Source: Lachnospiraceae bacterium
GTDB lineage: Bacteria; Bacillota; Clostridia; Lachnospirales; Lachnospiraceae
DNA length: 48,717 bases
Assembly (NCBI GenBank): GCA_024695575.1
Contig: JAILHY010000143.1
Span: 1-48,717, forward strand
Reading direction: 5' to 3'
Shown here piece by piece: positions 3,401 to 22,861 of the stretch (positions are counted from its first letter, which is position 1; each line of letters opens with the position of its first letter). A program made the position numbers and the translations under genes. The notes beneath the pieces are model-generated. The model saw only the letters and a list, made by a program, of their open reading frames with translations, was not told the DNA's origin and searched no databases.

Positions 3401-3407
3401 GGTACGT

Positions 3408-4355: not shown

Positions 4356-4634
4356 TTATTTGATCTTCGGTAAAATAGCCTCAACATCGGTGTGAGGGCG
4401 AGGAATTACGTGCTGAGCAACGAGTTCACCAAGGCGAGCAGCGTTGGTAGCGCCTGCTTCTACTGCAGACTTAACTGCGCCTACATCTCCGCGAACCATA
4501 ACGGTTACGAGACCGGATCCGATCTTCTCGGTACCTACAAGGATTACGTTTGCAGCCTTGCACATGGTATCTGCAGCTTCGATAGCAGCTGTGAGACCTC
4601 TGGTTTCAACCATTCCTAAAGCTTCCTGTGTCAT
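4356..4634 (-). CDS. BMC-H hexameric shell protein (PduA/PduJ-like)
   Basis: [61 protein letters not shown]...HVIPRPH. Confidence 0.95.
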
Positions 4635-4711
4635 TTTGATTTCCTCCTAAAAATGAAATTGATTTGGTTTTTAAGTTTATATTTCAACACCTGTACGGTG
4701 AAGAAAGCAGT

Positions 4712-5041: not shown

Positions 5042-5055
5042 TTTCTTTCCCTTTC

Positions 5056-5490: not shown

Positions 5491-5506
5491 TACTTATATC
5501 TTTCCT

Positions 5507-6721
5507 TTAGTCTGCTACTACCGCGATTTTGAGGCCGGTTTGTGCTGCGGCTTTCTTGAACGCCTCATCCACCTGTGACAAAGGATATTTGTCGGTGATG
5601 AGTTCGCTAATGGGAAGGCCGATAGCCTTGGCTCCCTTAAGGAAGTCAAAGGTCGTAGCATAATCTCTCAAGGTGTATACCCAGCTTCCAACGATTGTAA
5701 GCTCCTTCGAGCAGATATCGAAGTGAGGATTGATGGTCGCGTCGCCGCCGTTTATAAAGAAACCAAGTTCGCAAAGGCCGCCGCCGTTACGTACGAATTT
5801 GTAAATGTTTGAATGGCCTGCAGGGCTTCCTGTACACTGGAATGCAAAATCCGCAAGATGTCCGCCGAATTTACTTTCAACGCCCTTAGCCATATCCTCG
5901 ATGCCGCTGTAATCCTTGAAATTAACGGTATCTGTTGCGCCAAGCTTCTTTGAGAACTCAAGACGCGCGGGATTTCCGTCTACAGTGATGATATTCTGTA
6001 CCCCCATAGTCTTAAGTACTGCAACGCAGATAAGACCGATGGGGCCGCAACCCTGAACAACAACTCTTGAATTAAACTTAAGGATTCCGGTACTCTTGGC
6101 TCTCTCTACAGCATGTACAAGCACTGCACAGGGCTCGATGAGGATTCTTGAATCGAGGTCAAGATCGGATACGTTAAAGAAAGTGGATCCGAGCGCTCCG
6201 CGAACAAGAATATAATCTGCAAACCAGCCGTTTGTGTGTACTCCGTCATCAGGGAGGAGTCCGTATACATCTGCACCGCCCACGTTCTTTTTGTTAAGGT
6301 CGAACATGGTGATATCGGGGTTATCCTTAAAGATCATGCAGGTTACAATCTTGTCGCCCACATGTACGTCCTTGCCGGCAGAGTCCTTGGTAACATTCTT
6401 ACCAAGCTTAACGATCTCACCGGTTCCCTCGTGTCCGAGAGCTACAGGGATGAGACCGAAAGGATCACGCTTATATTCGTGTGAATCGGTTCCGCAGATT
6501 CCGCAGCCTTCAACCTTTACAAGGATGTCGTCGTCGCCAACCTCAGGCATGGGGAATTCTTTAACTTCCATCTTGCCAAGCTCGGTGAGCATTGCAACAC
6601 GGGCCTTGGAAGGGATGGGGCCGGAAGCATGGGACACGGAGGATGTGGCTGCTCCGGTGCCGGAAAGGTTCGAAAGAACCTGCTTGACTATTGCTTCTAT
6701 TTGTTGATTACTGATATCCAT
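5507..6721 (-). CDS. Zinc-type MDR alcohol dehydrogenase with N-terminal encapsulation peptide
   Basis: MDISNQQIEAIVKQVLSNL...EGCGICGTDSHEYK...GHEGTGEIV...VVVQGCGPIGLI. Start moved from 6808 to ATG at 6721 (GGAG SD), which removes overlap with the upstream gene. Confidence 0.9.
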   Translation of the reverse strand: MDISNQQIEAIVKQVLSNLSGTGAATSSVSHASGPIPSKARVAMLTELGKMEVKEFPMPEVGDDDILVKVEGCGICGTDSHEYKRDPFGLIPVALGHEGTGEIVKLGKNVTKDSAGKDVHVGDKIVTCMIFKDNPDITMFDLNKKNVGGADVYGLLPDDGVHTNGWFADYILVRGALGSTFFNVSDLDLDSRILIEPCAVLVHAVERAKSTGILKFNSRVVVQGCGPIGLICVAVLKTMGVQNIITVDGNPARLEFSKKLGATDTVNFKDYSGIEDMAKGVESKFGGHLADFAFQCTGSPAGHSNIYKFVRNGGGLCELGFFINGGDATINPHFDICSKELTIVGSWVYTLRDYATTFDFLKGAKAIGLPISELITDKYPLSQVDEAFKKAAAQTGLKIAVVAD

Positions 6722-6795
6722 ATTATTCTCCACTTTATTGAAACTATTTACTCCGTTCAAGCGGCACTCGGCCTGACATCTTCCTTCGAAAGATG

Positions 6796-8187
6796 TCATC
6801 TGATACACAGACTGTCTGACATTGTGCAGCGTCTTCTCTTGGTGAATGTAGCTGCGCTTGTAAGTCCCTCGCCGGTACGGCTTGCTATGGTGAATGTAGG
6901 GAAGCCTTCGCCTCCGAAACCAAGAGCTGCGTAACTGGGTCCGTTCTTTACAAGGATCGCAGTATCGATGGCACGTGCATATTCCGTGATACGATCAACG
7001 TTCTTTGAATGGATGTGAGCGCTGTGTCTGTTACCGTGCTCAAGCCATACAGCCTGTTCAACCGCATCCTTAAAGTCTTTGGCTCTTACGATACCAAGGA
7101 TCGGCATCATAAGCTCTGTAGTGATGAGAGGATGTTCCTTGGGGCCTTCGAAGATGATGCAGCGGGTTCCTTCGGGAGCCTTAACGCCTACCATCTCAAG
7201 AAGAACCTTGGCGCTTCGTCCCACGCACTTACGGTTAAGAGCGCCCTTTTCGGTGATAACGGTCTTAGCAAGCTTGTCCTGTACTTCTTTGGAAGCAAGG
7301 TAGCAACCGTTCTCCTCTATCATGTATTTCATAAGTTCATCGCAGATACTTGAAACTGCAACTACTTCTTTTTCAGCTATGCAGGGAAGATTGTTGTCAA
7401 AAGTACATCCGTTAACGATGTCCTTGGCTGCCTTCCTGATATCGGCTGTCTCGTCAACAAGTGCGGGAGGATTGCCTGCGCCTGCGCCGATACCTCTCTT
7501 GCCGCTTGAAAGTACTGCGGTAACAACTCCGGGACCGCCTGTAGCCACCAGAAGCGGAATGTCCTTGTGCTTCATCATGATGGCGCTTGAATCAAGTGTG
7601 GGATTCTCAACTGTAACTGCCACATTGTCGGGTCCACCTGCTTCCAGGGAAGCTTCGTTCACCAGATTGATGGCATACTGTGAAGTCCTGATGGCCTGGG
7701 GATGAGGGTTAAAAACAACCGTATTGCCGCCGGCTATCATTCCCATTGAGTTACAAAGAACCGTCTCACTGGGGTTGGTGCAGGGAGTGATGGCGCCGAT
7801 CACGCCAAAGGGTCCCATCTCAACCAGCGTAAGTCCTCTGTCTCCGGACCATGCAACAGTCTTGATATCCTCTGTTCCGGGAGTTTTTTCGGCTACAAGC
7901 AGGTGCTTTAAGATCTTGTCACCCACGTTGCCCATTCCGGTTTCTTCTACACCCATACGCGCGATGGTCTCGGCATTTTCCTTAATCTTACGGCGTATGA
8001 TGGATATTATCTTTTCTCTCTGATCCATGCTCATGACACGGACGATGCGCTGTGCTTCTTTTGCCTTCTCGATGGCAGTGTTCATATCATCAAACACACC
8101 GTGTCTTGCAGCTGAATCAGCTTTCAGATTAACTCTGGCGATTACCTCGCTTACTACAGCCTTTAACTGGCTTTCAGACATTTCCAT
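6796..8187 (-). CDS. pduP: CoA-acylating aldehyde dehydrogenase (PduP/EutE family)
   Basis: MEMSESQLKAVVSEVIARVN (encapsulation peptide)...TPCTNPSETVLCNS...VDETADIRKAAKDIVNGCTFDNNLPCIAEKEV; catalytic-Cys region. Confidence 0.94.
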   Translation of the reverse strand: MEMSESQLKAVVSEVIARVNLKADSAARHGVFDDMNTAIEKAKEAQRIVRVMSMDQREKIISIIRRKIKENAETIARMGVEETGMGNVGDKILKHLLVAEKTPGTEDIKTVAWSGDRGLTLVEMGPFGVIGAITPCTNPSETVLCNSMGMIAGGNTVVFNPHPQAIRTSQYAINLVNEASLEAGGPDNVAVTVENPTLDSSAIMMKHKDIPLLVATGGPGVVTAVLSSGKRGIGAGAGNPPALVDETADIRKAAKDIVNGCTFDNNLPCIAEKEVVAVSSICDELMKYMIEENGCYLASKEVQDKLAKTVITEKGALNRKCVGRSAKVLLEMVGVKAPEGTRCIIFEGPKEHPLITTELMMPILGIVRAKDFKDAVEQAVWLEHGNRHSAHIHSKNVDRITEYARAIDTAILVKNGPSYAALGFGGEGFPTFTIASRTGEGLTSAATFTKRRRCTMSDSLCIR

Positions 8188-8229
8188 GACTGTCTCCTTG
8201 AAAAAGAAAGTGTTATGTAAACCGACAAG

Positions 8230-9099
8230 TTATTTCATTTCAGAAACAACTTTACGAACGATCTCTGCGATCATTGCTTCGTTGATCCCTGCGCCTGCTG
8301 TAGGAACGGAATCGGATCCGGAGTTGCTGAAATCATAGTTGTAACCGGGCATTGTACGCATAACCTCATCGTTGCAGCCACTGCAGTTTCCGCCGCAGTT
8401 GTGGCAGTTGTCCTTGCCTGCATTCAGGCACACATTCGCGGGATGCTTACCGGGCATACCGAATTTACGTCTGATCTCGTAAAGCTTCTTGATGTTAGCC
8501 TTGTCGAATTCCTTGGGTCCGCCGAGCATCTTTGACTTGTAAAGGAGCTCTGCATAGAACTCAACGCTCTCCATCTTGTGATATGCTGCAAGAAGGTCTG
8601 TAGACCAGGAAAGAGCGCCGTGGCTCTCAAGTAATACAGCATCAAAGTAAGGAAGGTATTTCTCAAGATTGTCGGGGATCTCCATGGTTGAAGGAGTACC
8701 GTACTCAGCGATGGGCACGCAGCCAAGAGAAATAACGGCTTCGGGCATGATGGGCTGAGTAAGGGGAATTCCCGCAATGGCAAAAGAAGTTGCAAATGTG
8801 GGATGAGCGTGTACTACGGCACCTACATCGGGGCGCTTCTCATATACGCGCATGTGCATCTTTATTTCACTTGAAGGCTTGAAGCCCTTGTTAGCCTGGA
8901 TAACATTTCCTTTTTCATCAACCTTGCAGATATATTCGGGAGTCATAAATCCCTTGGATACGCCGGTAGGTGTACAAAGAAACTCGTGGTCGTTAAGCTT
9001 AACGGAGATATTACCGTCGTTGGCTGCAACCATGTTTCTGTTGTAGATTCTTTTACCGATGTCACAGATCTGTTTCTTGATTTCCATTTCGTTTACCAT
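8230..9099 (-). CDS. Class II aldolase (fuculose-/rhamnulose-1-phosphate aldolase type) with Cys-rich linker and C-terminal encapsulation peptide
   Basis: MVNEMEIKKQICDIGKRIYNRNMVAANDGNISVKL...VVHAHPTFATSFA...; tail NVCLNAGKDNCHNCGGNCSGCND...INEAMIAEIVRKVVSEMK. Confidence 0.9.
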   Translation of the reverse strand: MVNEMEIKKQICDIGKRIYNRNMVAANDGNISVKLNDHEFLCTPTGVSKGFMTPEYICKVDEKGNVIQANKGFKPSSEIKMHMRVYEKRPDVGAVVHAHPTFATSFAIAGIPLTQPIMPEAVISLGCVPIAEYGTPSTMEIPDNLEKYLPYFDAVLLESHGALSWSTDLLAAYHKMESVEFYAELLYKSKMLGGPKEFDKANIKKLYEIRRKFGMPGKHPANVCLNAGKDNCHNCGGNCSGCNDEVMRTMPGYNYDFSNSGSDSVPTAGAGINEAMIAEIVRKVVSEMK

Positions 9100-9126
9100 T
9101 TTTATATTCCTCCTGCATTTAATGCT

Positions 9127-9191
9127 TCTTAAGATCCTTCGGCTGACTTACGTCATCTCATATTCATTCGATGACCATGCTCAGGATGACG
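9127..9191. repeat. REP-like palindromic repeat (minus reading GTCATCCTGAGC...GCCGAAGGATCTTAAG)
   Basis: Intercistronic; ACGTCATC...GATGACGT arms and AAGATCCTTCGGC/GCTCAGGATGAC ends resemble a widely dispersed bacterial repeat. Confidence 0.5.
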
Positions 9192-9226
9192 TGCCCTTTA
9201 CAGGCCTCATTAATAGTTCTGTCGAT

Positions 9227-9658
9227 TTAGTTCTCTTCTTTTAAATAATTTAATATATCTCCTACGCCCTCTCCTTTAAGGGAGTTAACGTGAAATATCT
9301 TTTTGCAGCCCGCGATGGAAAGCCATCTGTCCGCAAGCGGGATATTGGCATCCGGCAGGTCGATCTTGGTCACGATTCCGATGCACTCCCTGTTGGCCTG
9401 TGCCGTTACATTCGGCGGGAACAGTGAGTAAGGTTCGTTGGCAGCAACCAGGATTCCCACCACATCGGCTTCGTAGGTGTAAAGCGCAAGGGCTTTACCG
9501 AGCCTGTGGCTCTGTGCGTATTCACCCGGGGTATCGATAAAGCTTTCATAGTGCTTGACATCCTGGGTCTTGTAATACCTGATCTCTTCACCCTTAAGCG
9601 CCTGGGTGAGAGTGGTCTTTCCGGACATTGACCGTCCCATGAGTATGAGTTTCTTCAT
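9227..9658 (-). CDS. eutP: EutP/PduV-family GTPase-like protein
   Basis: MKKLILMGRSMSGKTTLTQALKGEE...FIDTPGEY...VTKIDLP; P-loop, DTPG and TKID motifs. Confidence 0.9.
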   Translation of the reverse strand: MKKLILMGRSMSGKTTLTQALKGEEIRYYKTQDVKHYESFIDTPGEYAQSHRLGKALALYTYEADVVGILVAANEPYSLFPPNVTAQANRECIGIVTKIDLPDANIPLADRWLSIAGCKKIFHVNSLKGEGVGDILNYLKEEN

Positions 9659-10023
9659 GTTTTGGTAATCTCACAGACGTTGTACCTGAGTCTGTCTCTC
9701 GTGTAATCGAGCATGGCGTGCATGGAAGCCTCGACTTCGCTGACGGAGCCCGTGATTATAAGTGATCCGCTGAAGCGATCCACAAATCCCAGTGTGATAC
9801 CGCTGGCCTTAAGTGCCACATCCGCCATGATTATTGCCGTTTCCGAAGGTGTTACGGTGACGACACCGATAGCAGCCTTGTCATAATCGATCCTCGGGTC
9901 AAGTCCCAGCTTCTCGTAAAGCACCTTGTCGGGGCTTGCAATTATGTGGCAGAGCGTCACCTGACAACCCGGCACATATTCCTGTATTATTCGCATACGA
10001 TCTTCAAGACCGGTTATTTCCAT
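9655..10023 (-). CDS. eutS: Permuted BMC-H shell protein (EutS/PduU family)
   Basis: RIIQEYVPGCQVTLCHIIASP...AIGVVTVTPSETAIIMADVALKASGITLGFVDRFSGSLIITG. Confidence 0.92.
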   Translation of the reverse strand: MEITGLEDRMRIIQEYVPGCQVTLCHIIASPDKVLYEKLGLDPRIDYDKAAIGVVTVTPSETAIIMADVALKASGITLGFVDRFSGSLIITGSVSEVEASMHAMLDYTRDRLRYNVCEITKT

Positions 10024-10038
10024 GTTATGTTAACCTCC

Positions 10039-10830
10039 TCATCCACCTATGTGGCACACAAGCTTCGACACGTGCTCCACCTGTTTCTTGAGCATTTCCA
10101 TGTGCTCTGCGGTGGGTGTCTCGATATTGCCCATAGGGTAAGGTCTGTTCAATCCTTCGTACTTTCCTTCTCCGTATCTGTGATAGGGAAGAAGGTGTAT
10201 ATCCTTAACTCCCGGAAGTGAATCCGCAAATCTCGCTATCCCTGCTATTTCCTCGGGAGTATCGTTAAAGGTGGGGATCACGGGAACTCTCACTATAAGT
10301 CTCGTAAGCCCGCTCAGTGCTGTCTTTCTTGCATTTTCAAGCATCAGGTCGTTTCTTTTGCCGCAGAACTTCTCGTGCTTAGCGGGATCCGTATGCTTAA
10401 TGTCAAACAAATATGTATCAAGGTAAGGAAGAATACTTTCGATAACCTTAAAATCCGCAAATCCCATGGATTCCATAGCCGTGTTGATTCCACGGCGCTT
10501 GGCTTCTTTTAACAAGGCCTTCGCGAAATCAGGCTGAAGAAGGCTTTCTCCGCCGGAAAGGGTCAATCCTCCGCCGCTTCTGTAGTAATACTGCCTGTCA
10601 CGTTCAACGATATCCATGACTTCGGCGACGGTCACATCCCTTCCCACGGTCTTAGGTTCTCCAAGTACCGTCATGGTCTCGATCTCGTGACTCTGGGATT
10701 CGGGATTGCAGCACCACTTACAGCGCATTGCACAGCCCTTAAGGAACACTATTGTGCGAATTCCAATCCCATCGTGGATGCTGTATCTCTGTATGTCAAA
10801 GATCCTTCCTTTAACTTCCAAATCGTCCAT
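10039..10830 (-). CDS. Glycyl radical enzyme activating enzyme (radical SAM)
   Basis: GRIFDIQRYSIHDGIGIRTIVFLKGCAMRCKWCCNPESQS (CxxxCxxC)...SGGESLLQPDF. Start trimmed to ATG at 10830. Confidence 0.94.
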   Translation of the reverse strand: MDDLEVKGRIFDIQRYSIHDGIGIRTIVFLKGCAMRCKWCCNPESQSHEIETMTVLGEPKTVGRDVTVAEVMDIVERDRQYYYRSGGGLTLSGGESLLQPDFAKALLKEAKRRGINTAMESMGFADFKVIESILPYLDTYLFDIKHTDPAKHEKFCGKRNDLMLENARKTALSGLTRLIVRVPVIPTFNDTPEEIAGIARFADSLPGVKDIHLLPYHRYGEGKYEGLNRPYPMGNIETPTAEHMEMLKKQVEHVSKLVCHIGG

Positions 10831-10849
10831 TCTGTGCCTTCCGTACTTT

Positions 10850-13378
10850 CTATCTGTTAAAAGCCTGCTCAGTACGTCTGATGATATCATCCTGAAGGCT
10901 CTTGGAAAGGGTGGTAAACAACGCGGAGTAACCTGCGACCCTTACCACCAGGTGTCTGTAATTCTCAGGATGTTTCTGTGCATCGAGAAGTGTTTCTCTC
11001 GACACCACGTTGAACTGCATGTGCATTCCCTTCTTGTCAAAGAAGGTGCGTATCAGATCAACGAATTTGTGAAGTCCTTCGTCACCCGCGAGGGCACTTG
11101 GATGGAACTTCTGGTTGAAAAGTGTTCCGTTGCTTGCGATCCCGTGATCAAGCTTGGCTACGGAATTGGCACAGGCCGTTGGACCGTTCACATCGTTGCC
11201 TGCTGTAGGTGAAACACCGTCTGCTATCGGCATTCCCGCCAGACGACCGTCGGGAGTTGCACCGGTTGCGGCTCCTAAAGGCACATTGGCGGATACGGGA
11301 TATAATCCGGCCTGGAACCTTCCGCCCCTGGGATTTCTGTAATTAAGAAGGGGCCTTGTATAGGTATAAGCCACATCTCTTGCAAAGAGATCGACTTCAT
11401 CGATATCGTTACCAAATTTGGGAACTTCCTTAATAAGCTTAAGGATCCTGTCAAAGTTTTCTCTGTCCGCATCCGATACGGATTCGGAAAGGACCTTCTC
11501 CGTAAGCGCCTTCACCTGCATGGGATCGGGAGTTACGCCCTGACGAACAAACTCGGAAGCGATACGCCCCGCAAATTCACGGATGACCGGAGCCGGAGTG
11601 CCCTTGCCGTAGTTAAAAAGAAGGGCTTTCTTAAGCTCTGCCATGGTGATTTTCTTTTGCTCGTAAACAAGTGTCTTAATGGCGTAGAGCGAATCTGCCA
11701 TGTTGGCGATACCAAATCCCTGAGGGCCCGTGAAATTATATACACAACCGCCCTGCTCGGGAGTAAGTCCCCGTTTCATGCAGTCATCAAGAAGACTTGC
11801 AAGGAAAGGAAGGGGTACAAGCTCTGCATGAGCCTTATCTATTGAATTGTCAGCATTTACAAGAAGTGAAATAAAGTAATTCTGCTGAGTCTTATATGCA
11901 TCGTAGAATTCGTCGAAGGTCTTGAAATCCTCCACATTGCCGGTGTGAGGACCGATCTGCTCTCCCGCATCCTCACCGTCTGAGAATACAAGTTCAAGAG
12001 GTCTGCACATGTTGTAGAACGCTGCATCGTGCCAGCCCATGGTCTTGCCGGCTTTCTGAGGTTCCACGCAGCCGATGATGTCGTAATCTCTTGCTTCCTG
12101 TAAGGTAAGTCCCATGCTCATAAGCGAAGGGATGATGACTTCGTCGTTGTAATATGCGGGAAGTCCGATTCCCGTGCGGGTAAGCTCTGCCGCCCTCATG
12201 AGAAGTTCGTAAGGCGAACCGTTCCATACTCTGATGGACAAAGAAGGCATGGGCAGAAATACGTGCATTGATGCGTCTATACACATGAAGGAAAGGTCGT
12301 TGGTGCCATCGAGACCGTTCTCGTGCTGTCCGCCGACAATCATGTTCTGGAACAGGCTGTATCCGGCAAATCCCTTGGCGCTTTCCGCATCACGGCATTT
12401 ATTCAGGTCGTTTAATTTCACAAATACGCAATCTATAAGTTCCTGGGCAAAATCTCTTGTAATCGCGCCCTTGTCCATGTCAGCCTTGAAATAAGGGAAC
12501 ATGTACCGGTCGAATCGTCCGGGTGAAATTGAATGTCCGGATGACTCAAGCTGCAAGAGCTGCTGTACGAACCAGAAGCTCTGACAGGCTTCGTAAAAAC
12601 CGGTGGCAGGTTTCGCAGGTACCCTTGAAAGAACCTCTGCTATCTTTGAAAGCTCTGCCTTGCGTGTCTGATCCGAACACTTATCCGCCATGGCAAGTGC
12701 CAGTTTACGGTATCTTTCCGCATAGGTCATGACCGCGTCACAGCTTATGATCATAGCCTCTAACAGTGTATGTTTCGCTGCATAATCGGCGTCTCCCACG
12801 TTGCAGCATTCCATCTCGGCCTGTGCTTTGGCTTTGATACCTTCAAATCCCAGTTCCAGTACTTCCCAGTATTTGCAGGTAAGATGTCCAACACCGTTGT
12901 AGAAATAGTTGCCCGGTGTGAACATGGCGTGATCGATGGCCTTAAGGGTCTCGGGAGCCATGTAGGAAGCCGCAAGTTCACTGGTGGTCTTACCCTTCCA
13001 GTATCTGTCCGCTTCCTTTATCTCTTTCTTTGCCTTGTCGGAAATATAGAAAGGATCGGCTTCGCGGGTAGCTACGGTATCAAATTCGGCCTCAAGCCAT
13101 TCAAAAGAAAACTCGGGATAAGTCTGACAACCCCTGGGAGCTATGGTCTGTGAACCGACGATAAGCTCGTCGTCACGGATGATAATCGGAATATTCTCTA
13201 AGATATGTTTAAAAGCAAGTGCACGCCTCATTACTATGGGCATACCTTCCGTTGCCTTGTATGACTCGGTGATAAGGACGGCTCGGGATGACTCGATCTC
13301 GGGCATCTTGGCAAAAAGATCGTGAACCAGTTTATCAATACGCTTTGATTTACTGCAACGTGTGCTGTTGAATCCCAT
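10850..13378 (-). CDS. Glycyl radical diol dehydratase (B12-independent 1,2-propanediol/glycerol dehydratase family)
   Basis: PFL-like 842 aa; YDIIGCVEPQKAGKTMGWHDAAFYNM thiyl Cys motif; C-terminal glycyl loop VVRVAGYSALFTTLSKSLQDDIIRRT; adjacent activase. Confidence 0.94.
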   Translation of the reverse strand: MGFNSTRCSKSKRIDKLVHDLFAKMPEIESSRAVLITESYKATEGMPIVMRRALAFKHILENIPIIIRDDELIVGSQTIAPRGCQTYPEFSFEWLEAEFDTVATREADPFYISDKAKKEIKEADRYWKGKTTSELAASYMAPETLKAIDHAMFTPGNYFYNGVGHLTCKYWEVLELGFEGIKAKAQAEMECCNVGDADYAAKHTLLEAMIISCDAVMTYAERYRKLALAMADKCSDQTRKAELSKIAEVLSRVPAKPATGFYEACQSFWFVQQLLQLESSGHSISPGRFDRYMFPYFKADMDKGAITRDFAQELIDCVFVKLNDLNKCRDAESAKGFAGYSLFQNMIVGGQHENGLDGTNDLSFMCIDASMHVFLPMPSLSIRVWNGSPYELLMRAAELTRTGIGLPAYYNDEVIIPSLMSMGLTLQEARDYDIIGCVEPQKAGKTMGWHDAAFYNMCRPLELVFSDGEDAGEQIGPHTGNVEDFKTFDEFYDAYKTQQNYFISLLVNADNSIDKAHAELVPLPFLASLLDDCMKRGLTPEQGGCVYNFTGPQGFGIANMADSLYAIKTLVYEQKKITMAELKKALLFNYGKGTPAPVIREFAGRIASEFVRQGVTPDPMQVKALTEKVLSESVSDADRENFDRILKLIKEVPKFGNDIDEVDLFARDVAYTYTRPLLNYRNPRGGRFQAGLYPVSANVPLGAATGATPDGRLAGMPIADGVSPTAGNDVNGPTACANSVAKLDHGIASNGTLFNQKFHPSALAGDEGLHKFVDLIRTFFDKKGMHMQFNVVSRETLLDAQKHPENYRHLVVRVAGYSALFTTLSKSLQDDIIRRTEQAFNR

Positions 13379-13531: not shown

Positions 13532-13588
13532 GGACCGGTAACCCCGTCCCGGGGGTCCAATGAACCACTAACCCCGTCCCCATAGTCC
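13532..13588. repeat. Two tandem copies of an about 30-bp GC-rich REP-like unit
   Basis: taaccccgtccc at 13539-13550 and 13569-13580, each followed by GTCCA; overlaps the 3' end of the PLP enzyme gene. Confidence 0.6.
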
Positions 13589-14758
13589 ACTCAGTCGCTC
13601 CAGTGCTTCACGGAGCACCACTCTCGGGCAGGCCACGTTTATTCTCTGGAATCCGGTTCCCGCGTTACCGAATATCTTTCCGCTGTCAAGCCAGAGCTTT
13701 GCTTTATTGATCACCAGATCGTCAAGTTTCTCGGGATCCGGACAGATTCCGCGACAATCAAGCCAGATAAGATAAGTTCCTTCGGTGACACTCTTGCTTA
13801 CTCCCGGCAAGTTTTCTTTTAAGAAACGGTCTGCGAATTCGATGTTACCCGCAATGTAGGATTTGCATGCCTCGTACCACACGTCTCCCGATTCGTAGGC
13901 GGCCCTTGCTGCGGTGATGCCTGCCGCATTTGGTTCATCGTAGCCGGTTTTGTCGATCTCTGCCTTGATCTTTCCGCGTATTTCCTTGTTGGGGATGAAG
14001 ATGTTAGCCTGCTGAAGTCCCGCCAGATTAAAGGTCTTGCTGGGTGAGGTGGCAGTAATTGTGAAATCTTTGTATTCTTCTTTTACCTCCTGAAAAAAAA
14101 CATGCTCTCCCTTAAAAACAAAATCGAAATGGATATCGTCACTGAATACAAAAACTCCGCGGCGCCTGCAGATTTCCCCGACAGCCTCCAGTTCCTCCCT
14201 TGTCCACACTCTTCCCACGGGATTGTGAGGATTGCAGAGAATAAAAAGCTTAACCTTGTTATCCGCTACCTTCCTTTCAAAGTTCTCAAAATCCATTTGA
14301 TATCTGCCGGACTCGTCCCGATAAAGGTCTGAGCTTACGGCCTTTCTGCCGTTTTTAAGGATGAGGGATTTAAAGGGATAATAAACCGGCTCCTGAATGA
14401 TGACCGAATCACCCTCTTTGGTAAGTGCCTTTATGGCCATGGCGATGGCAAAGCTTACACTCGGAGTCTTTACGTGCCACTCTTCCTGTACCGTCCAGTT
14501 GTGGTGTCTTTTCATCCAGCCCGAAACCGCGTCAAAGAAGCCGTCTCCGTGCTGAGTATTGGTGTATCCGTATATATTGTGAAAAGAAAGTCCCGCCAGG
14601 GCGTCCCTTATGTAGGAGCTTGTCTGGAAATCCATGTCCGCAACCCACAAAGGAAGTACCTCCGCGGGATATCCCCTTTTTACGGCAAAATCGTATTTAA
14701 GGCAGCCAGTATTCTTTCTGTTTACTACCCTGTCAAAATCAAGATTTCTTTCAGCCAT
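13568..14758 (-). CDS. patB: PLP-dependent C-S lyase, MalY/PatB family
   Basis: MAERNLDFDRVVNRKNTGCLKYD...VLPLWVADMDFQ...NPHNPVGRVW...SDDIHFDF...SPSKTFNLAGLQ. Start at 14758 avoids overlap. Confidence 0.92.
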   Translation of the reverse strand: MAERNLDFDRVVNRKNTGCLKYDFAVKRGYPAEVLPLWVADMDFQTSSYIRDALAGLSFHNIYGYTNTQHGDGFFDAVSGWMKRHHNWTVQEEWHVKTPSVSFAIAMAIKALTKEGDSVIIQEPVYYPFKSLILKNGRKAVSSDLYRDESGRYQMDFENFERKVADNKVKLFILCNPHNPVGRVWTREELEAVGEICRRRGVFVFSDDIHFDFVFKGEHVFFQEVKEEYKDFTITATSPSKTFNLAGLQQANIFIPNKEIRGKIKAEIDKTGYDEPNAAGITAARAAYESGDVWYEACKSYIAGNIEFADRFLKENLPGVSKSVTEGTYLIWLDCRGICPDPEKLDDLVINKAKLWLDSGKIFGNAGTGFQRINVACPRVVLREALERLSGLWGRG

Positions 14759-14765
14759 TTCGTCC

Positions 14766-15863
14766 TCACTTTGCTTCAAAAGCCTGCTTAAGATCGGCAA
14801 TTATGTCATTCGCTGATTCGATCCCCACCGACATTCTAAGTAACCTATCGTTTATTCCAAGCTTTTCTTTCTGGGTCACGGGTACATCCGGATGGGTCTG
14901 GACCGTCGGATAGGTAAGAAGGCTCTCCGTTCCCCCAAGGCTTTCCGCGAAGGTTATAAGCTTAATGTTCTTAAGTATCGAAACCGCCTTTTCTTTTGAC
15001 TTAACGTAAAAAGAAACCATTCCGCTTCCCACATAGAAAACTTCCGAAACCTCTGACTGACCCTTAAGCCACTCACTTACCCTCTCCGCGTTTTCTTTGT
15101 GGCGTTCCATGCGAACGGAAAGAGTCTTAAGCCCCCTAAGGCAGAGCCAGCATTCAAAGGGTCCGAGAGTTGCTCCCGTGGTCTTGGAAAGAAGCCTGTA
15201 ATCCGCAGCCAGTTCACTGTCTGCAACGCACAGGAAACCGCATACCGTATCATTGTGACCGCAAAGATATTTGGTGCCTGAATGGATCACCACATCAGCT
15301 CCTTCTTTTATGGGATTTTGAAAATAAGGAGTCATGAAGGTATTGTCAACGCATACCAGAATCTTACGTTCATGGGCGATCTTCGCTACCGCCTCAATAT
15401 CCGTCACCTGCATCATGGGATTGGTAGGAGTTTCAAAGTAAACTGCTTTCGTATTGTCTTTAATGAGTTTCCGTAAGCCTTTCGGGTCCGTAGTGTCCGC
15501 ATATTCGATCTCGAGCCCGTTCTTTTTAGCGATGCGGTCAAACAGTCTCACGGTGCCGCCGTAAAGATCCTCTCCGCAGATAATGTGGTCTCCGGGTGCG
15601 AATCTGTCAAAGAAACATGATAATGCCGCCATGCCCGATGAAAAAGCAATTGAATCACAAGCCCCTTCAAGGGAGCTGACGGTTTCTTCAAGATATTGTC
15701 TGGTAGGATTGGATTCCCTGGAATAATCAAACCCCGTAGGATTGTGTCCCGGGGTCAGATGGGAAAAAGAAGCGGTTTGATAGATTGGATAACTGATCGC
15801 GAAATTACTGTCTTCGTTTTTGTGCTCGCTTCCGTGTATACATCGTGTTTCTATGGAATACAT
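14766..15863 (-). CDS. Cys/Met-metabolism PLP enzyme (cystathionine gamma-synthase/beta-lyase family)
   Basis: TRCIHGSEHKNEDSNFAISYPIYQTASF...SSGMAALSCFF...VDNTFMTPYFQNP...HSGTKYLCGHND. Confidence 0.93.
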   Translation of the reverse strand: MYSIETRCIHGSEHKNEDSNFAISYPIYQTASFSHLTPGHNPTGFDYSRESNPTRQYLEETVSSLEGACDSIAFSSGMAALSCFFDRFAPGDHIICGEDLYGGTVRLFDRIAKKNGLEIEYADTTDPKGLRKLIKDNTKAVYFETPTNPMMQVTDIEAVAKIAHERKILVCVDNTFMTPYFQNPIKEGADVVIHSGTKYLCGHNDTVCGFLCVADSELAADYRLLSKTTGATLGPFECWLCLRGLKTLSVRMERHKENAERVSEWLKGQSEVSEVFYVGSGMVSFYVKSKEKAVSILKNIKLITFAESLGGTESLLTYPTVQTHPDVPVTQKEKLGINDRLLRMSVGIESANDIIADLKQAFEAK

Positions 15864-15873: not shown

Positions 15874-17001
15874 CTAAATCGTCATAAGATTAATTGTCAG
15901 TTCTGCTGCCCTGACTAAAGCATCCACTGTGGTGAATTCAGCCGTTGTGTGGACTTTCTCCATGCCTGATGCAAGTACTATGGTCTCTATTCCTATCTCG
16001 TTATAGTAATTTCCGTCGCTCCCGCCAAAGGTTTCGATAAATTCGGTCTTAAGTCCCGTTTCCTCTGCGGCTTTAAGGAATTTCTCAACAGTATCACTTG
16101 TTTGTGCCACCCTGTAAGCTTTCACATGCTCGGAAAAAGAAACCGAAACCTTTCCCCCTGCGTTCTTTGCCGCTTTATCAAAGCGTTCAAAGATCTCATC
16201 CTTTACTGAAAGCGCATGAGAATGATCCATGCTCCTTACTTCACCTGTGATCTCAATGGTTTCAGGCACCACGTTTTTGCCCGTGCCGCCCCGGATTGTT
16301 CCGAAGTTTACGGTGGTATCCTTGTCGATATGCCCGGTCTTAATGTCCTTTAATGCTTCAACTGCAATATTTAAGGCATTTATCCCCTTTTCAGGTTCAA
16401 ATCCGGCGTGGGCTGCTCTTCCATTTACTTTAATGCTAAAAGAAATAATGGAAGGTGCGGCTAAAGCTGCCCTCCCGATAGGGCCCGTAAGATCAAGCAC
16501 ATAGGCTGACTTAGATCTGATGCTCGTAAAATCAAATTTCTTGGCTCCTTCGCAAAACACTTCCTCTGCGGGACTTATTAATACTTCAATATCAGGATGA
16601 GGAAGGTTCTTTTCCTTTATAACGGAAAGGGCCTCAAAGATCGCCGAAAGCCCCGACACATCGTCGGCTCCGAGCACCGTATCGCCCTTGGATACGATCC
16701 CCCCGTCCTCTTTGACAAGGGCTTCTTTTCCCTTACCCGGTGAAACCGTATCAAGGTGAGCCGCAAAAAGAAGGGGATCTCCCTGCGCCGTACCCGGCAG
16801 TAATGCGTAAATGTTTGGAAAGCCCTCCGGATGTTCCCGTAAATAATCAGGATCCGTACCTTCCGTGGTAACCGTAAGCCCAAGCGCCTGCAGATCGTTC
16901 CTAACCCGCTCCCCAAGAGCCTTTTCGTGAAAGGACTCGGAATCGTAGCCCACATATTCTGAAAATCTCTTTACAAGCCTTTCTTTGTTGACAGCGCTCA
17001 T
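15874..17001 (-). CDS. M20-family peptidase (PepT/tripeptidase-like)
   Basis: LLFAAHLDTVSPGKG...DTVLGADDVSGLSAIFEAL...ISPAEEVFCEGAKKFD; M20 metal-site motifs. Confidence 0.9.
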   Translation of the reverse strand: MSAVNKERLVKRFSEYVGYDSESFHEKALGERVRNDLQALGLTVTTEGTDPDYLREHPEGFPNIYALLPGTAQGDPLLFAAHLDTVSPGKGKEALVKEDGGIVSKGDTVLGADDVSGLSAIFEALSVIKEKNLPHPDIEVLISPAEEVFCEGAKKFDFTSIRSKSAYVLDLTGPIGRAALAAPSIISFSIKVNGRAAHAGFEPEKGINALNIAVEALKDIKTGHIDKDTTVNFGTIRGGTGKNVVPETIEITGEVRSMDHSHALSVKDEIFERFDKAAKNAGGKVSVSFSEHVKAYRVAQTSDTVEKFLKAAEETGLKTEFIETFGGSDGNYYNEIGIETIVLASGMEKVHTTAEFTTVDALVRAAELTINLMTI

Positions 17002-17018: not shown

Positions 17019-17789
17019 TTAAATATAGAATTCAGGCTCTTTTAAGCCTCTCATCTTTTCAAAGAAATCCTTGGCTCTTTCGCTCTTTGGATGATCAAAG
17101 ACTTCCTTTGGCGTGCCGTCTTCGATTATCTTGCCTCCGTCAAGGAATATGACTCTGTTGGATATCTTTCTGACAAAGTCCATCTCGTGTGAAACAAGGA
17201 GCATTGTGTAGCCCTGTTCCGCAACAGCTTTGATGGTGTTTAAAACTTCCGTAACAAGCTCGGGATCAAGTGCTGATGTGGGCTCATCAAGAAGAATGAT
17301 GTCGGGCTTCATGGCAAGAGTCCTTGCTATTGCCACTCTTTGCTGCTGACCGCCCGACATGTGCTTCGGATAATGGTTCTGCCATTCAAGAAGTCCAACG
17401 TTCTCAAGTTTCTTTAAAGCTTCTTTCCTTGCTTCTTCTTTTGGAATCTTTCGAACGGTCACAAGGCCTTCCATTACATTCTCAAGAGCGGTCTTATGTT
17501 CAAAAAGGTAAAACCTCTGAAATACCATTCCCGTGTGAAGCCTTAATTCATTTACTTTCTTACGGTCCTTACCTTTAAAGGGAAGGTTTAGCTCCGTATC
17601 TCCGATCTTAATGGTTCCTTTTTCCGGTTTCTCAAGTAAGTTTATGGAACGAAGCAGAGTCGATTTACCTGTTCCCGAGGGGCCCACGATACCGATGATA
17701 TCGCCCTTGTTAACGGAAATATCTACGCCGTTAAGCACCACATTGCTGTTGAAACTCTTATGAAGATCCTTAATTTCAAGTATGGCCAT
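17019..17789 (-). CDS. Polar amino-acid ABC transporter ATP-binding protein
   Basis: GIVGPSGTGKSTLLRSINLLEKPEKG...HMSGGQQQRVAIARTLAMKPDIILLDEPTSALDPELV. Confidence 0.96.
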   Translation of the reverse strand: MAILEIKDLHKSFNSNVVLNGVDISVNKGDIIGIVGPSGTGKSTLLRSINLLEKPEKGTIKIGDTELNLPFKGKDRKKVNELRLHTGMVFQRFYLFEHKTALENVMEGLVTVRKIPKEEARKEALKKLENVGLLEWQNHYPKHMSGGQQQRVAIARTLAMKPDIILLDEPTSALDPELVTEVLNTIKAVAEQGYTMLLVSHEMDFVRKISNRVIFLDGGKIIEDGTPKEVFDHPKSERAKDFFEKMRGLKEPEFYI

Positions 17790-17793: not shown

Positions 17794-18528
17794 TCAGGCT
17801 CCTTCTATTGCTTTGGGCTGATCCGGAATCTTGATCTTCCGCTCAACAAACTTAAATATCCGTTCAAAGATTACCGTAAGCACCCAGTATATGATGGCAA
17901 GGGCCACGTAACCCTCCAGGTATCTGTAATCCCTGCCCGCCAGTATCTGGTTCTGATAAGTGATCTCGATGATACCGCAGGTAGAAGCAAGGCTTGTGCC
18001 CTTAATAAGGCCAATCAGGGAATTTCCGATGCCGGGAAGAGCATTTTCCGAAGCTTCCGGGATGATTATCCTTCTTAATATCTGACCGTAGGTCATTCCC
18101 ATGGCGGTGGCTGCTTCGATCTCGCCGTTATCAACGGATTCAAGGGCTGCTCTGATGGTTTCGCTTGTAAACGCCGCCTGATAAAGGCCAAGAGCGATAA
18201 ATGCATATACGATCTTTGGAATGATGTTTACATCAATGTTTGCGCCCCAGGAATTAAATATTCGGAGGATCGCGGGAATCCCGTAATATGCCACATACAA
18301 CTGGATCAGCATCGGGGTCCCGCGCATTATGGAAAGGAAGGCTGTGGCAAGCCTTGATAAAACCTTTATCTTTTTGTATCTTGCAACCGCTATTAGCAAT
18401 CCCACAACGATGGATACAAGGAATGCAAGTCCCGCAAGCTCAAGTGTAATCGGTATTTTCTTTATAAGCTCCGGGAATCTCGACCACACAAGTTTAAAAC
18501 TGAAAAAATCCGATAATTTAGTAGCCAT
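17794..18528 (-). CDS. Polar amino-acid ABC transporter permease (His/Glu/Gln/Cys type)
   Basis: LELAGLAFLVSIVVGLLIAVARYKKIKVLSRLATAFLSIMRGTPMLIQLYVAYYG...; start at ATG 18528. Confidence 0.94.
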   Translation of the reverse strand: MATKLSDFFSFKLVWSRFPELIKKIPITLELAGLAFLVSIVVGLLIAVARYKKIKVLSRLATAFLSIMRGTPMLIQLYVAYYGIPAILRIFNSWGANIDVNIIPKIVYAFIALGLYQAAFTSETIRAALESVDNGEIEAATAMGMTYGQILRRIIIPEASENALPGIGNSLIGLIKGTSLASTCGIIEITYQNQILAGRDYRYLEGYVALAIIYWVLTVIFERIFKFVERKIKIPDQPKAIEGA

Positions 18529-18548
18529 AATCTCTCTCTTTAACAAGC

Positions 18549-19442
18549 TTAGTATTCATCCGGGAATCTGTAGCCCTTTGGAAGGTTAAACCCTATTGCT
18601 ATTTCCTGCGGCATTTCTCCCGGGGAATAAGAAAGTGACGTTTTGTTTCTTTTAAATCCCTTTCTGTTGTAAAACCCAACAGCACCGGGATGGGTATTTA
18701 GAAAAATAAAGAATCCGGGAAGCTGCTTTGAAAGATTTGCAACCACGTTCCAGCCTATGTGGAAGCCCTGATATTCGGGATCCACCGCAACGTTTAAGAT
18801 AAGCGCTTCGCCATGTCCGTCCGTTACGGCTCTTGCAACACCAACTATCTTATCTCCGTCGTAGGCTACTTCCACCTTCTGGGAATTTCTAAACACTTCT
18901 TCCGTCTTTTTTATATCTCTTTCGTGGCCTCCGAAGGCCTTTGACAGGACTTCGTTGATCCTTGCAAGATCGGCGCCTTCAAGGGAATCCCGGTAACGTA
19001 TTCCTCCCACGTTTTCCTTTTTCACCACATTACCGTTATCTATGAAGGACTTTCGCGGATAAAACTCATCCTCAAACCGAAAGCCTTCCGGAAGAAAGAA
19101 TCCATGCTTTTCCCAGTCGTCAAGCTTTGCAGGTGATACTTCGTTCACATAGGTAAAAGAAGTTTTGGATCTGAAAAATCCAAGTTCCTCATAGATCCCA
19201 AGTTCATCCGTATCATCCACCGTTGCAAATATATGCTGCCCGGAAAGCTCATTCTTTAAATGCACTAATAACTCTTTTTTGAGGCTGCCAACAGCATATT
19301 CGGGTTCCACATTAACTTCCGTGATCTTAGACCACTCCTGTCCGTCGGAAATGGCTTTCGCTGTTCCCACATGTCTGCCATTTTCATATGAATCTACCGA
19401 ATATACCGATCCCTCCCGGGATTCTTTAAATTCTACGCTCAT
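18549..19442 (-). CDS. Tandem-domain GNAT acetyltransferase
   Basis: C-terminal half VAYDGDKIVGVARAVTDGHGEALILNVAVDPEYQGFHIGWNVVANL...GFYNRKGFKRN; N-terminal half shows the same plan. Confidence 0.85.
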   Translation of the reverse strand: MSVEFKESREGSVYSVDSYENGRHVGTAKAISDGQEWSKITEVNVEPEYAVGSLKKELLVHLKNELSGQHIFATVDDTDELGIYEELGFFRSKTSFTYVNEVSPAKLDDWEKHGFFLPEGFRFEDEFYPRKSFIDNGNVVKKENVGGIRYRDSLEGADLARINEVLSKAFGGHERDIKKTEEVFRNSQKVEVAYDGDKIVGVARAVTDGHGEALILNVAVDPEYQGFHIGWNVVANLSKQLPGFFIFLNTHPGAVGFYNRKGFKRNKTSLSYSPGEMPQEIAIGFNLPKGYRFPDEY

Positions 19443-19450: not shown

Positions 19451-20686
19451 TTAGTTGTGTAATTTTCCTTTTAAAGGATTGATGGAAGCGTCAACGGAAA
19501 GTACAAAGTTCTTGTCCGCTCTTACTTCCTGTGAAGGATCGTTCCATTTGGTCTTAGATATTACGGACTGGTAATCCTCCACCGTTTCACCTGCGGGATG
19601 CTTTAAGAAAACATTCTCGGGATCTGCGGAAAGTGCCTTTCTTGCGTGATCGGTCTTTAAGAACTCGTCAAGATCGATCTTGCTTACCACTCTGTAGATA
19701 TAGGAACCGAAATCCCCTCTGGTGTCATCCTTAGCATTATTGTGTCTGTTAATGTACTTTGAAAATGCAGGAATGCTGTAAAGTTCCTTAACATATTCCC
19801 AGACATTCTTGTATTCGGAGACTCTCCTTTTCTGAGGTCCCGCTGCAAGATAGAAGTCTGTCTCCCATTTGATCAGTGATACATAGGCCCGTACATCGGA
19901 GTCAGTAATGTAATCACCAAAGAGGAATCTGTTTTCTGCGAGTCGTTTGTCAAGCTTTTCCAATGCTGCATGAAATGCTGCATGGCCGTCGTTATAAGCT
20001 TCGGGAGACTGGGCAAATGCCTGTCTGTAATGTCCGTCGTTGATGTTGGGGAATAACCAGTCATTGAACTCATCTATCTCCTTTCTGTACTTAACGGGAT
20101 AAAGGTCCGGTGCATCCACGGGCTGGAACTCTCTGAACTGAACCTCCAGATAGTTTGTAAGCCTGTGATAATCGTTGTTTACCGCTTTCTTTTCCTTGTA
20201 ATCGGCAAAAGTAGGTGTGGTTGCGCGTCCCGTGTAATTGGGATCCGCGTTGGTGTAAAGATCCGATAAGAAGTTTACGCCTGTTGTTTCGTCTCTGAAG
20301 TTTTCCTGATCAGGAAAGCCCCAGCCGTATTTGTTATGTTCGCCCGTAGGGCTTACCTTACGCTCTTTGATCACGTCCTGAAGACCTAAAAGTTCTCTTA
20401 CGATTACAGGGCGCTGGCTCCAGTTGCATCCGGGGTTCCAGTAGATTATGTATCTGTCCTTGTCTGCCTTAAGGTCTCCTGCTTCTTTTCCAAAAGGAGT
20501 GATAAGGGAATTCTTCTGTCTTACCCAGTAACCCTTTTCGTCGATCTCACCCTGATTGATGGTGGGACGGGGCTTGGTGTGATTTAAGCCTGCGAGATAT
20601 TCCGCTATCTCGTCGGTGTACTTTACTTTATTTTCCTGCTCTTTAAGTTTTGCCTGATGAGCTTCAAGGCTGCATGCGTTTGCCAT
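19451..20686 (-). CDS. Glutathionyl-hydroquinone-reductase-like (Xi-class GST) protein
   Basis: YIIYWNPGCNWSQRPVIVRELLGLQD...TPTFADYKEKKAVNNDYHRLTNYL...RLAENRFLFGDYITDSDVRAYVSLIKWETDF. Confidence 0.85.
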   Translation of the reverse strand: MANACSLEAHQAKLKEQENKVKYTDEIAEYLAGLNHTKPRPTINQGEIDEKGYWVRQKNSLITPFGKEAGDLKADKDRYIIYWNPGCNWSQRPVIVRELLGLQDVIKERKVSPTGEHNKYGWGFPDQENFRDETTGVNFLSDLYTNADPNYTGRATTPTFADYKEKKAVNNDYHRLTNYLEVQFREFQPVDAPDLYPVKYRKEIDEFNDWLFPNINDGHYRQAFAQSPEAYNDGHAAFHAALEKLDKRLAENRFLFGDYITDSDVRAYVSLIKWETDFYLAAGPQKRRVSEYKNVWEYVKELYSIPAFSKYINRHNNAKDDTRGDFGSYIYRVVSKIDLDEFLKTDHARKALSADPENVFLKHPAGETVEDYQSVISKTKWNDPSQEVRADKNFVLSVDASINPLKGKLHN

Positions 20687-21639: not shown

Positions 21640-21673
21640 TAAAAAACCCGGGATCATCTGATCGCCCGGGCCC
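21640..21673 (-). terminator. Rho-independent terminator/attenuator in the leader of the amino-acid transport operon
   Basis: Minus strand GGGCCCGGGCGATCAGATGATCCCGGGTTTTTTATTA: CCCGGG/ATCA arms plus U-tract, between leader peptide and SBP. Confidence 0.85.
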
Positions 21674-21694
21674 TATCGTTGTATGTTATATGTT

Positions 21695-21799
21695 TCAGCG
21701 CATGCATGGCATGACATTGAAACATGGCTTCTCATACGTTCTACAGGCCCTGTTTTCTGACATTCGACACATGCACATACACATCATTTGCTTTTTCAT
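21695..21799 (-). CDS. Met/Cys-rich leader peptide (34 aa)
   Basis: Not in ORF track (<60 aa). SD GGAAAGGAAATAAAC-ATG; MKKQMMCMCMCRMSENRACRTYEKPCFNVMPCMR*, 8 Met and 6 Cys; followed by the terminator. Confidence 0.8.
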   Translation of the reverse strand: MKKQMMCMCMCRMSENRACRTYEKPCFNVMPCMR

Positions 21800-21801: not shown

Positions 21802-21855
21802 TTATTTCCTTTCCAAGGTCGCCGATTTGTTTGCGCCTTTCTTTGTTGTAGCCAT
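21802..21855 (-). CDS. Possible 17-aa upstream leader ORF
   Basis: AGGAAAGGTGATAGG-ATG...TAA encoding MATTKKGANKSATLERK; its stop lies 2 nt before the Met/Cys leader ATG. Confidence 0.45.
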   Translation of the reverse strand: MATTKKGANKSATLERK

Positions 21856-21878: not shown

Positions 21879-21930
21879 AAAAATACACAAAAACTATCGC
21901 CTGTGATAAGTTTTGGTTATCACAGGCGAT
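21879..21930 (-). terminator. Rho-independent terminator of the lysR gene
   Basis: Perfect 14-bp stem ATCGCCTGTGATAA-loop-TTATCACAGGCGAT followed on the minus strand by AGTTTTTGTGTATTTTT. Confidence 0.88.
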
Positions 21931-21952: not shown

Positions 21953-22861
21953 TTACTGTATTTCCTTGTATTGTAAAAGCTTTGAAACGTAGAGCTTTCC
22001 GTATTCGGAAAGAGCCGATCCCTTTCTTGTGATGTAGCCTATCACCAGAGGATCTTCTTCTTTCAGTTTAACGGACACAAGGCCTTTAAGCACCGCATCC
22101 TCACCGGAGAGCATTCCCGAACCTATGGAATAGCCCTTAAGCTCTGATATCAGCTCCATGGTGGTGGCGCGGTCGTCGGACTTGATCATCTTGTCGAAAT
22201 CGTAGTCGGAAAGAGCCTCTTCCGTAAGATAGTAGTTACTGTCCGTATCCTGGTCAAAGGAAATGCAGGGATAATCGGTAAGTTCCGCAAGGGATATCTC
22301 TTTTCTTTTGGCAAAAGGATGGTCCTTCCAGAAATATACGTAGGTGTCTCGCTTCATTAATGGAGTAAATTCAAGCTGATATTCTTTAAAAAGCTTCTTA
22401 AGTACCTTCTCATTGGCACCGGAAAAAGAAACTATTCCCACCTCGCTCTTAAGGCTCCTTACCTCCTCAAGCACCGCTTCCGTTTTGGTCTCGTGGAGGG
22501 AAAAAGCATATTTATCGGGAGATTTTTCTTTTACCATTTCGGTAAAGGCCCGGATTGCGAAGTTATAGTGCTGGCTGGAAACGGAAAACCTGTCCTTATT
22601 CTTATCTTTGGAAAGGAAATGATCTTCGAGGATCTCGTATTGATTCACGGCCTTCTTGGCATAGGTGACAAACTCCCGTCCCTCGTCCGTAAGGGCTATG
22701 CCCTTGTTGGTCCTGTCAAAAAGAAGGATGCCAAGCTCTTCCTCAAGCTCGTGAATGCTTGAAGAAAGTGCGGGCTGTGAAATGAATAATTTGGACGCCG
22801 CTTCACGTATGGAGGAAGCTCCGGCTACGCAAAGCACGTATTTGATCTGTGTAATGTTCAT
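21953..22861 (-). CDS. LysR-family transcriptional regulator (candidate sulfur/Cys regulator)
   Basis: MNITQIKYVLCVAGASSIREAASKLFISQPALSSSIHELEEELGILLFDRTNKGIALTDEG. Confidence 0.94.
   Translation of the reverse strand: MNITQIKYVLCVAGASSIREAASKLFISQPALSSSIHELEEELGILLFDRTNKGIALTDEGREFVTYAKKAVNQYEILEDHFLSKDKNKDRFSVSSQHYNFAIRAFTEMVKEKSPDKYAFSLHETKTEAVLEEVRSLKSEVGIVSFSGANEKVLKKLFKEYQLEFTPLMKRDTYVYFWKDHPFAKRKEISLAELTDYPCISFDQDTDSNYYLTEEALSDYDFDKMIKSDDRATTMELISELKGYSIGSGMLSGEDAVLKGLVSVKLKEEDPLVIGYITRKGSALSEYGKLYVSKLLQYKEIQ

Follow-up and report, generated by a model that had tools for sequence, protein, structure and literature searches.

Gene organization of the locus

The window, by which we mean the whole stretch of DNA analyzed (48,717 nucleotides of a Lachnospiraceae contig), belongs to a 2.55-Mb draft genome in 203 contigs, the close relatives of which are named Lachnospiraceae. 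On its minus strand, a short leader ORF is located between the gene for a LysR-type regulator and a same-strand operon. The first operon gene codes for a substrate-binding lipoprotein of the amino-acid type (SBP_bac_3, PF00497; 20705-21604) with a weak match to a cystine-binding model. The other operon genes code for a GST-like protein (19451-20686; PF13410/PF13409, with an inferred ECM4/YqjG-like architecture), which is a recurrent neighbour of the leader in relatives, a GNAT acetyltransferase (18549-19442; PF13508/PF13673), an ABC permease (17794-18546) and an ABC ATPase (17019-17789), whose top NCBIfam matches are a cystine permease and the cystine protein TcyN, respectively, each below its cut-off, an M20 family hydrolase (deacetylase/peptidase-like, 15874-17001; TIGR01883, above cut-off), a PLP enzyme of Cys/Met metabolism (MetB/MetC-like, 14766-15863; PF01053) and a PatB-family C-S lyase (13568-14800; TIGR04350, above cut-off). 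The operon thus combines the uptake of sulfur compounds with C-S cleavage, and any finer assignment of substrates is inference.

The LysR-type regulator (21953-22861, minus strand; PF00126/PF03466) has homologs upstream in several relatives and is likely a second control layer acting at the promoter, with a motif identified by eye only. After its gene, on the same strand, lies a terminator-like inverted repeat (21896-21930) containing TTATCACAGGCGATA, with a similar motif upstream in two related loci (L040 and L043). The repeat includes TTATC-N6-GATA, also present upstream in both of these loci, and might double as a LysR binding site; that TTATCACAGGCGATA itself is such a site is possible, on inspection by eye. 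The GST-like protein has no NCBIfam match in the window or in three related loci (L045, L049 and L073), and its substrate is unknown. GST-like genes recur in sulfur operons of anaerobes, often in two or three tandem copies. A further cluster in the window (748-13378) codes for a microcompartment-like shell protein, a propanediol-type phosphotransacylase, aldehyde and alcohol dehydrogenases, a class II aldolase, and a glycyl radical enzyme with its activase, and by eye it may represent a glycyl-radical microcompartment locus.

A Met/Cys-rich leader peptide ORF

The leader ORF (21695-21799, minus strand) starts with an ATG at 21799 and comprises 34 codons followed by TGA (21697-21695). It codes for the peptide MKKQMMCMCMCRMSENRACRTYEKPCFNVMPCMR, in which 8 of the 34 residues are Met (7 besides the start) and 6 are Cys. 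A Shine-Dalgarno-like sequence, GGAAAGGA (21807-21814), precedes it, as do comparable sequences in relatives. Codons 5-11 (21767-21787) form an uninterrupted run of putative control codons, Met-Met-Cys-Met-Cys-Met-Cys, and immediately 3' of this run is a CGA-AUG (Arg-Met) element (21761-21766), whose CGA is also found in related leaders. With the amino-acid frequencies of the proteins encoded in the window as background (Cys 1.46%, Met 2.37%), the probability of at least 6 Cys is 8e-6, that of at least 7 Met is 1e-5, and that of at least 13 Cys plus Met among 33 residues is 1e-10. The window contains 1333 start-to-stop ORFs of 20-60 aa, of which the leader ORF is the richest in Met plus Cys.

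A first-pass annotation of the locus, which gave no strand, had described the Shine-Dalgarno sequence, the ATG, the 34-aa peptide with its Met and Cys counts, the gap between stop codon and hairpin, and the U-tract; all of these were confirmed, and the ORF is assigned to the minus strand. Its further claim, that the next gene codes for an amino-acid-binding protein in an operon with C-S lyases, also held (SBP_bac_3, with the PatB-type and Cys/Met-metabolism PLP enzymes). An additional upstream ORF, MATTKKGANKSATLERK (ATG at 21855), was rejected: it is not conserved in the nearest relative (L042), and by eye its ATG falls at the likely -10 place. No consensus promoter for the leader was found in the window, and the promoter was placed only by eye.

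Terminator and putative antiterminator in the window

The leader stop codon is followed after 24 nt by an intrinsic terminator (21641-21670, minus strand), made up of the hairpin sequence CCCGGGCGATCAGATGATCCCGGG (21670-21647) and TTTTTT (21646-21641). A simple terminator scan missed the hairpin, but it folds with -11.7 to -13.7 kcal/mol. The RNA just 3' of the Cys codons is complementary to the 5' arm of this terminator: GGGCCU (21745-21750), which lies within the codons AGG-GCC-UGU (R17-A18-C19), can pair with GGGCCC (21668-21673), which overlaps the terminator 5' arm. The core of this putative antiterminator is short (5-6 bp). In L042 the corresponding pair is GGGCCU/AGGCCC.

Folding predictions for stalled and released ribosomes, in which the footprint was assumed to cover 12 nt beyond the A-site codon, gave a mean pairing probability of the window terminator of 0.92 with the ribosome at the stop codon, and of 0.39-0.40 with the ribosome stalled at the Cys codons. 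A crude RNAduplex test was weak for the window leader (p=0.30), and in its place we adopted a terminator-competition test, in which the intervening RNA (from the Cys run to the terminator) is compared with dinucleotide shuffles. For the window leader alone the result was borderline (p=0.055). The minimum free energy of the whole leader (z=-1.4) is uninformative because the relevant RNA states depend on the ribosome.

Leaders in orthologous operons

A search with the peptide alone returned only the closest relative and noise, the latter including the chance matches L002, L003 and L005-L016, all rejected. The search was therefore anchored on the operon genes, starting from orthologs of the binding protein and the GST-like protein. 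Neither a pattern scan of viral contigs nor a plasmid search found anything. The 79 loci scanned yielded about 40 Met/Cys-rich leaders with a Shine-Dalgarno sequence and a terminator, and relatives carry leader ORFs at the same places in orthologous operons (e.g., MKKNSVFSMCMMCRMMNNRACKPNHEPCLIVMR, MRNISLSTNMCMHRMLYSRTYEWQGAGCCCRARV and MKQGQATMMCMCQMMCRMLYSRAGNAARCRA), with the same sulfur genes downstream. The window's leader belongs to what we call type A, with the core C-R-M-xx-S-R-A (C-R-M-xx-S-[R/Q]-A in its family-wide form). One close relative, L044, whose GST-like protein is 88% identical, has no leader, and the leader layer is therefore optional.

Leaders of another type (e.g., MMMCCCCCMM) precede the GST-like gene, and several leaders outside type A have its codons without its RNA sequence. 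Leaders of the MMMCCCCCMM type, with up to six Cys codons in tandem, occur at L056 (5704-5799), L057, L060, L063, L071, L081, L085 and other loci. Several loci have two leaders, one before the GST-like gene and one before the M20 hydrolase gene. Met/Cys leaders outside type A were also seen in MAGs labelled Acholeplasmatales, Erysipelotrichaceae and Bacillales (L045-L049, L054, L058 and L073), where the RNA arms differ and the downstream sulfur genes are the same; either convergence or transfer is possible.

Covariation of the antiterminator

In type-A leaders, a stretch of RNA (CUCCCGGGCA..AUGGC) that starts about 5-15 nt downstream of the last Cys control codon has its complement in GCCAU..UGCCCGGGAG, and the 3' part of this complementary segment is the terminator 5' arm. 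Across a composite of 23 sequences, the arms of which were cut by eye, 93% of the cells in this helix are paired, 7 of the 15 pairs show compensatory change, and 23 cells are changed on both sides, compared to 5.3+-2.0 in shuffles (0/500 reached the observed value). Sliding the partner arm by one to three columns destroyed the signal. An independent full-length alignment of 14 leaders gave 97% pairing and 7 double-change cells versus 1.9. The clearest compensatory case involves a leader codon, where CGG (Arg) versus CAG (Gln) tracks CCCGGGA versus CCUGGGA in the terminator. The window and L042 have a different helix at the equivalent place (GGGCCU with GGGCCC or AGGCCC), and therefore both arms have changed together.

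The terminator-competition test was significant for 11 non-redundant type-A leaders (Fisher p=1.4e-6 versus dinucleotide shuffles). The corresponding figure for 35 leaders (Fisher p 2e-11) overstates the case because that set includes related sequences. The folding test failed for some leaders taken singly (L112 and L116, for example), and the terminator hairpins at about ten loci were delimited by eye. A trp-like pairing (1:2-like, of the UGUCGAA/UUCGACA type) that could act as a protector, restoring termination in the absence of a stalled ribosome, is present in about ten of 28 relatives and absent in the window.

Distribution across the family and downstream genes

We used two unbiased searches. 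In the first, the pattern ATGTGYWKBTGYCGAATG was run on 397 genomes of the family with its reversal as control, and gave 18 matches versus 3. Leader-like ORFs account for all but one of the 18 and almost always lie ahead of sulfur genes; the remaining match (L121) lacks leader features and was rejected. The genes next to these 17 leaders code for MetY, MetB, MetQ, MetN, cystine-type binding proteins, GST-like proteins and one cyclase-family protein, and for one leader (L123) no next gene was identified.

In the second search, we trained a covariance model (R1) on 14 leaders, a set that included neither the window leader nor that of its nearest relative, L042. R1 matched in 41 of 299 sampled genomes of the same family, in 14 of 18 genomes of the genus, and in several further families of the class. 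It recovered the window leader with a modest score (27.3 bits, E 7.7e-4 per genome), the window having had no part in the training. The window leader meets the definition of the C-R-M family, i.e., a Cys-Arg(CGA)-Met core followed by an antiterminator arm and a terminator arm, with GGGCCU/GGGCCC replacing the UCCCGGGC/GCCCGGGA arms of that family (CCGGGA-type terminator arm). The same genome contains a second, better-scoring and better-conserved copy of the leader (L163, G000:C145:414-552), with the peptide MKTINRNDLIHYVMCCRMQISRAITMAGLFPVLDRQS, directly before metY (O-acetylhomoserine sulfhydrylase-like). Among the 50 classified genes downstream of R1 matches were 24 metY, 12 cystine-binding protein genes, most of them fused to a MetQ domain, 7 metQ and 2 GST genes, with one each of metN, cysK, a permease-like gene, a cyclase gene and an unassigned gene. 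The E-values of R1 are rough, the data are MAG-heavy, and some of the tests share related sequences.

Putative control codons and the invariant CGA

In the ten codons before the Arg-Met pair, all 35 type-A leaders compared contain one or more Cys and one or more Met, and 32 of the 35 contain two or more Cys. Leaders ahead of transporter genes are richer in Met than leaders ahead of metY (Mann-Whitney p=0.003), and both metN leaders are Met-heavy. No leader in the comparison lacks Cys codons, which makes Cys the better-supported signal; sensing of Cys by the leader is likely, as inferred from sequence alone, while joint sensing of Cys and Met is a supported hypothesis for which the Met evidence, likewise inferred, is only suggestive.

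The first-pass annotation had proposed that the availability of Cys and/or Met, or of their charged tRNAs, controls read-through, a proposal that homologous leaders without Met/Cys codons or the absence of an alternative fold would have refuted. Met/Cys-rich peptides were found in the homologous loci, where they keep their Met/Cys codons. There is also an alternative fold, which covaries from species to species and is borderline for the window by itself, and the genes downstream serve the transport and synthesis of sulfur amino acids. The proposal is thus supported, with Cys firmer than Met and read-through itself inferred; the narrower idea that the alternating Met-Cys run senses both amino acids has suggestive support only.

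In all 45 related leaders, the Arg that follows the Cys run is encoded by CGA, the Arg codon used least in the window (22 of 527). R1 itself gives weight to CGAAUG, yet the leaders found first via the operon genes all have CGA. It may serve as a pausing codon or as an RNA contact, roles that we offer as candidates without a tested explanation.

Proposed regulatory mechanism

The leader ORF, its codon bias, the terminator, the conserved and covarying antiterminator, and the gene context are established by sequence. They match the features of an attenuator: a Shine-Dalgarno sequence and short ORF upstream of the first operon gene are present in the window and in relatives, the control-codon run matches the downstream pathway (sulfur genes), an intrinsic terminator lies 3' of the ORF, and the antiterminator is mutually exclusive with the terminator, the last of these being met for the type-A set and borderline for the window alone. 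The window leader is very likely a ribosome-mediated transcription attenuator of the trp type that responds to Cys-tRNA and probably Met-tRNA, the regulation itself being inferred from sequence alone. A ribosome would start on the leader ORF behind RNA polymerase and, when charged Cys-tRNA (and probably Met-tRNA) is scarce, would stall in the MMCMCMC run. The footprint of the stalled ribosome would end before the next RNA segment, which could then pair with the terminator 5' arm as antiterminator, and the sulfur-scavenging operon would be transcribed. When the amino acids are plentiful, the ribosome would pass through this segment to the stop codon, so that the terminator would form and transcription would end. 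Translation of the ORF, stalling, the identity of the tRNA sensed, the direction of regulation and stalling-dependent read-through are all inferred.

A bolder reading extends this mechanism to an undescribed attenuator family found throughout the Clostridia that reads both sulfur amino acids simultaneously. In it, the Met:Cys codon ratio would tune sensitivity gene by gene (Met-heavy before metN, Cys-heavy before cysK), the invariant rare CGA and the AUG after the control codons would act as added pausing or as an RNA element, and the leader family would take the place of the S-box and T-box RNAs of other Firmicutes. Taken jointly, these parts strike us as more apt to fail than to hold.

Alternative explanations

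The alternative that survives best is that the leader senses Cys only, the Met codons serving some other end, e.g., AUG-rich spacing or several start sites, in which case Met starvation would not induce the operon. In its favour, Cys codons are universal, many leaders of metY, metB and M20 genes have a single Met before the Cys run (MCCCRM), and the polycysteine leader L079 has little adjacent Met. Against it stand the Met found before the Arg-Met pair in 35 of 35 leaders, the greater Met content of transport leaders relative to metY leaders, the Met-heavy metN leaders, and the six or more leaders ahead of cystine-binding/MetQ fusion genes. In our view, this alternative is almost as likely to prove right as wrong.

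A second alternative, direct binding of a metabolite or uncharged tRNA by the leader RNA, as a riboswitch or T-box with an incidental ORF, is very improbable. The conservation of the RNA does exceed the codons (CGAAUG, UCCCGGGC and GCCAU segments), and SAM riboswitches and T-boxes are usual for the sulfur genes of Firmicutes. But no Rfam T-box, SAM or other riboswitch matched at the type-A leaders or in the window (searched to E=10 in the window). The ORF, Shine-Dalgarno sequence and Cys/Met codons are kept while the flanking RNA varies, the arms differ by lineage, and several leaders outside type A have the same codons with a different RNA sequence.

We likewise give little credence to arrest of the ribosome by the Met/Cys-rich nascent peptide in response to an oxidant, a metal or a thiol, rather than to the supply of charged tRNA. 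In favour of this idea, both Cys and Met are able to bind metals, the Arg-Met that follows the run never varies at the level of the peptide, and its Arg is always encoded by the rare CGA. However, Met and Cys occur in no fixed order, the number of Cys in the run ranges from one or two to six, the S-R/Q-A residues are accounted for by RNA pairing, and the controlled genes concern amino-acid supply and not metals or oxidants. Finally, a chance codon run before a plain terminator or operon spacer, for which the short, individually borderline window antiterminator and the leaderless L044 might speak, is contradicted by the comparative data and all but excluded by the composition (P about 1e-10), the repeated occurrence, with covariation, in dozens of genomes, and the independent second copy in the same genome.

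Comparison with known systems

As a probable trp-type attenuator, the window leader resembles the trp, his, leu and ilv systems in its Shine-Dalgarno sequence, its short ORF with control codons, its antiterminator competing with an intrinsic terminator and the pathway genes downstream, and a possible 1:2-like protector hairpin is seen in a subset of its relatives. It differs from them in using Cys and Met control codons, in its occurrence in Clostridia, a group from which few leaders of this sort have been reported, and in that a single leader family stands ahead of several separate sulfur operons. According to a 2010 survey of attenuators, no leader-peptide system besides ermC was known outside Proteobacteria and Actinobacteria, and the survey itself reported a his leader in bacilli (PMC2965389).

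Mycobacterial polycysteine leaderless sORFs have been described as cysteine-responsive attenuators (Canestrari et al. 2020, as cited in PMC13236596), and among the Actinobacteria, mycobacteria included, Cys uORF candidates carry their Cys run close to the stop codon and showed no conserved terminator hairpin (PMC1262725). The window leader is similarly a Cys-codon-rich uORF before sulfur genes, but with a Shine-Dalgarno sequence, an early Cys run, an intrinsic terminator, a covarying antiterminator and Met codons; the first two of these and the terminator place it outside the definition of the mycobacterial polycysteine leaderless sORF. Ribosome-mediated attenuation has also been proposed for the uORFC-8-2 motif upstream of cysS in Rhodobacterales, which has tandem Cys codons and an intrinsic terminator (PMC8632094). 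That motif belongs to another phylum and precedes another gene, its two Cys codons are at positions 14-15, and it has no Met run and a different RNA.

Met/Cys T-boxes and SAM (S-box) riboswitches of Firmicutes regulate sulfur genes of this sort by transcription termination, as we propose for the window leader, but unlike the proposed mechanism they sense tRNA or SAM directly via RNA. The ytmI operon of Bacillus subtilis, with the LysR regulator YtlI, contains cystine-type ABC transporter, acetyltransferase and hydrolase genes for sulfur scavenging. The window LysR gene likewise stands beside cystine-type ABC transporter, acetyltransferase and hydrolase genes, whereas the window operon also includes the GST-like protein and the MetB-like and PatB-like lyases. 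To our knowledge, there is no Met/Cys leader at the ytmI operon. A description of Met/Cys leaders in Clostridia was not found in the literature searched, most subscription journals being outside its scope. The mechanism is of a known kind, and the leader family, its dual codon content and its regulon appear to be new.

The Firmicutes are known for riboswitch and T-box control of Cys and Met genes, and the leader provides evidence for a translation-coupled, dual Cys/Met attenuator among them. It was found in about one in seven sampled genomes of the same family, in common gut and rumen Clostridia. The family predicts a sulfur regulon, annotates many small ORFs that had been missed, and offers a natural tool for measuring the charging of Cys- and Met-tRNA in anaerobes.

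At six loci (L125, L126, L128, L130, L134 and L136), a cystine-type SBP_bac_3 domain is fused to a MetQ/NlpA-like domain in one lipoprotein, as read from the sequence, and the fusion genes of this set are preceded by the same leader type. The fusion may represent a dual importer of cystine and methionine, a possibility inferred from its domains. These fusions under leader control and the invariant CGA codon are directly testable leads.
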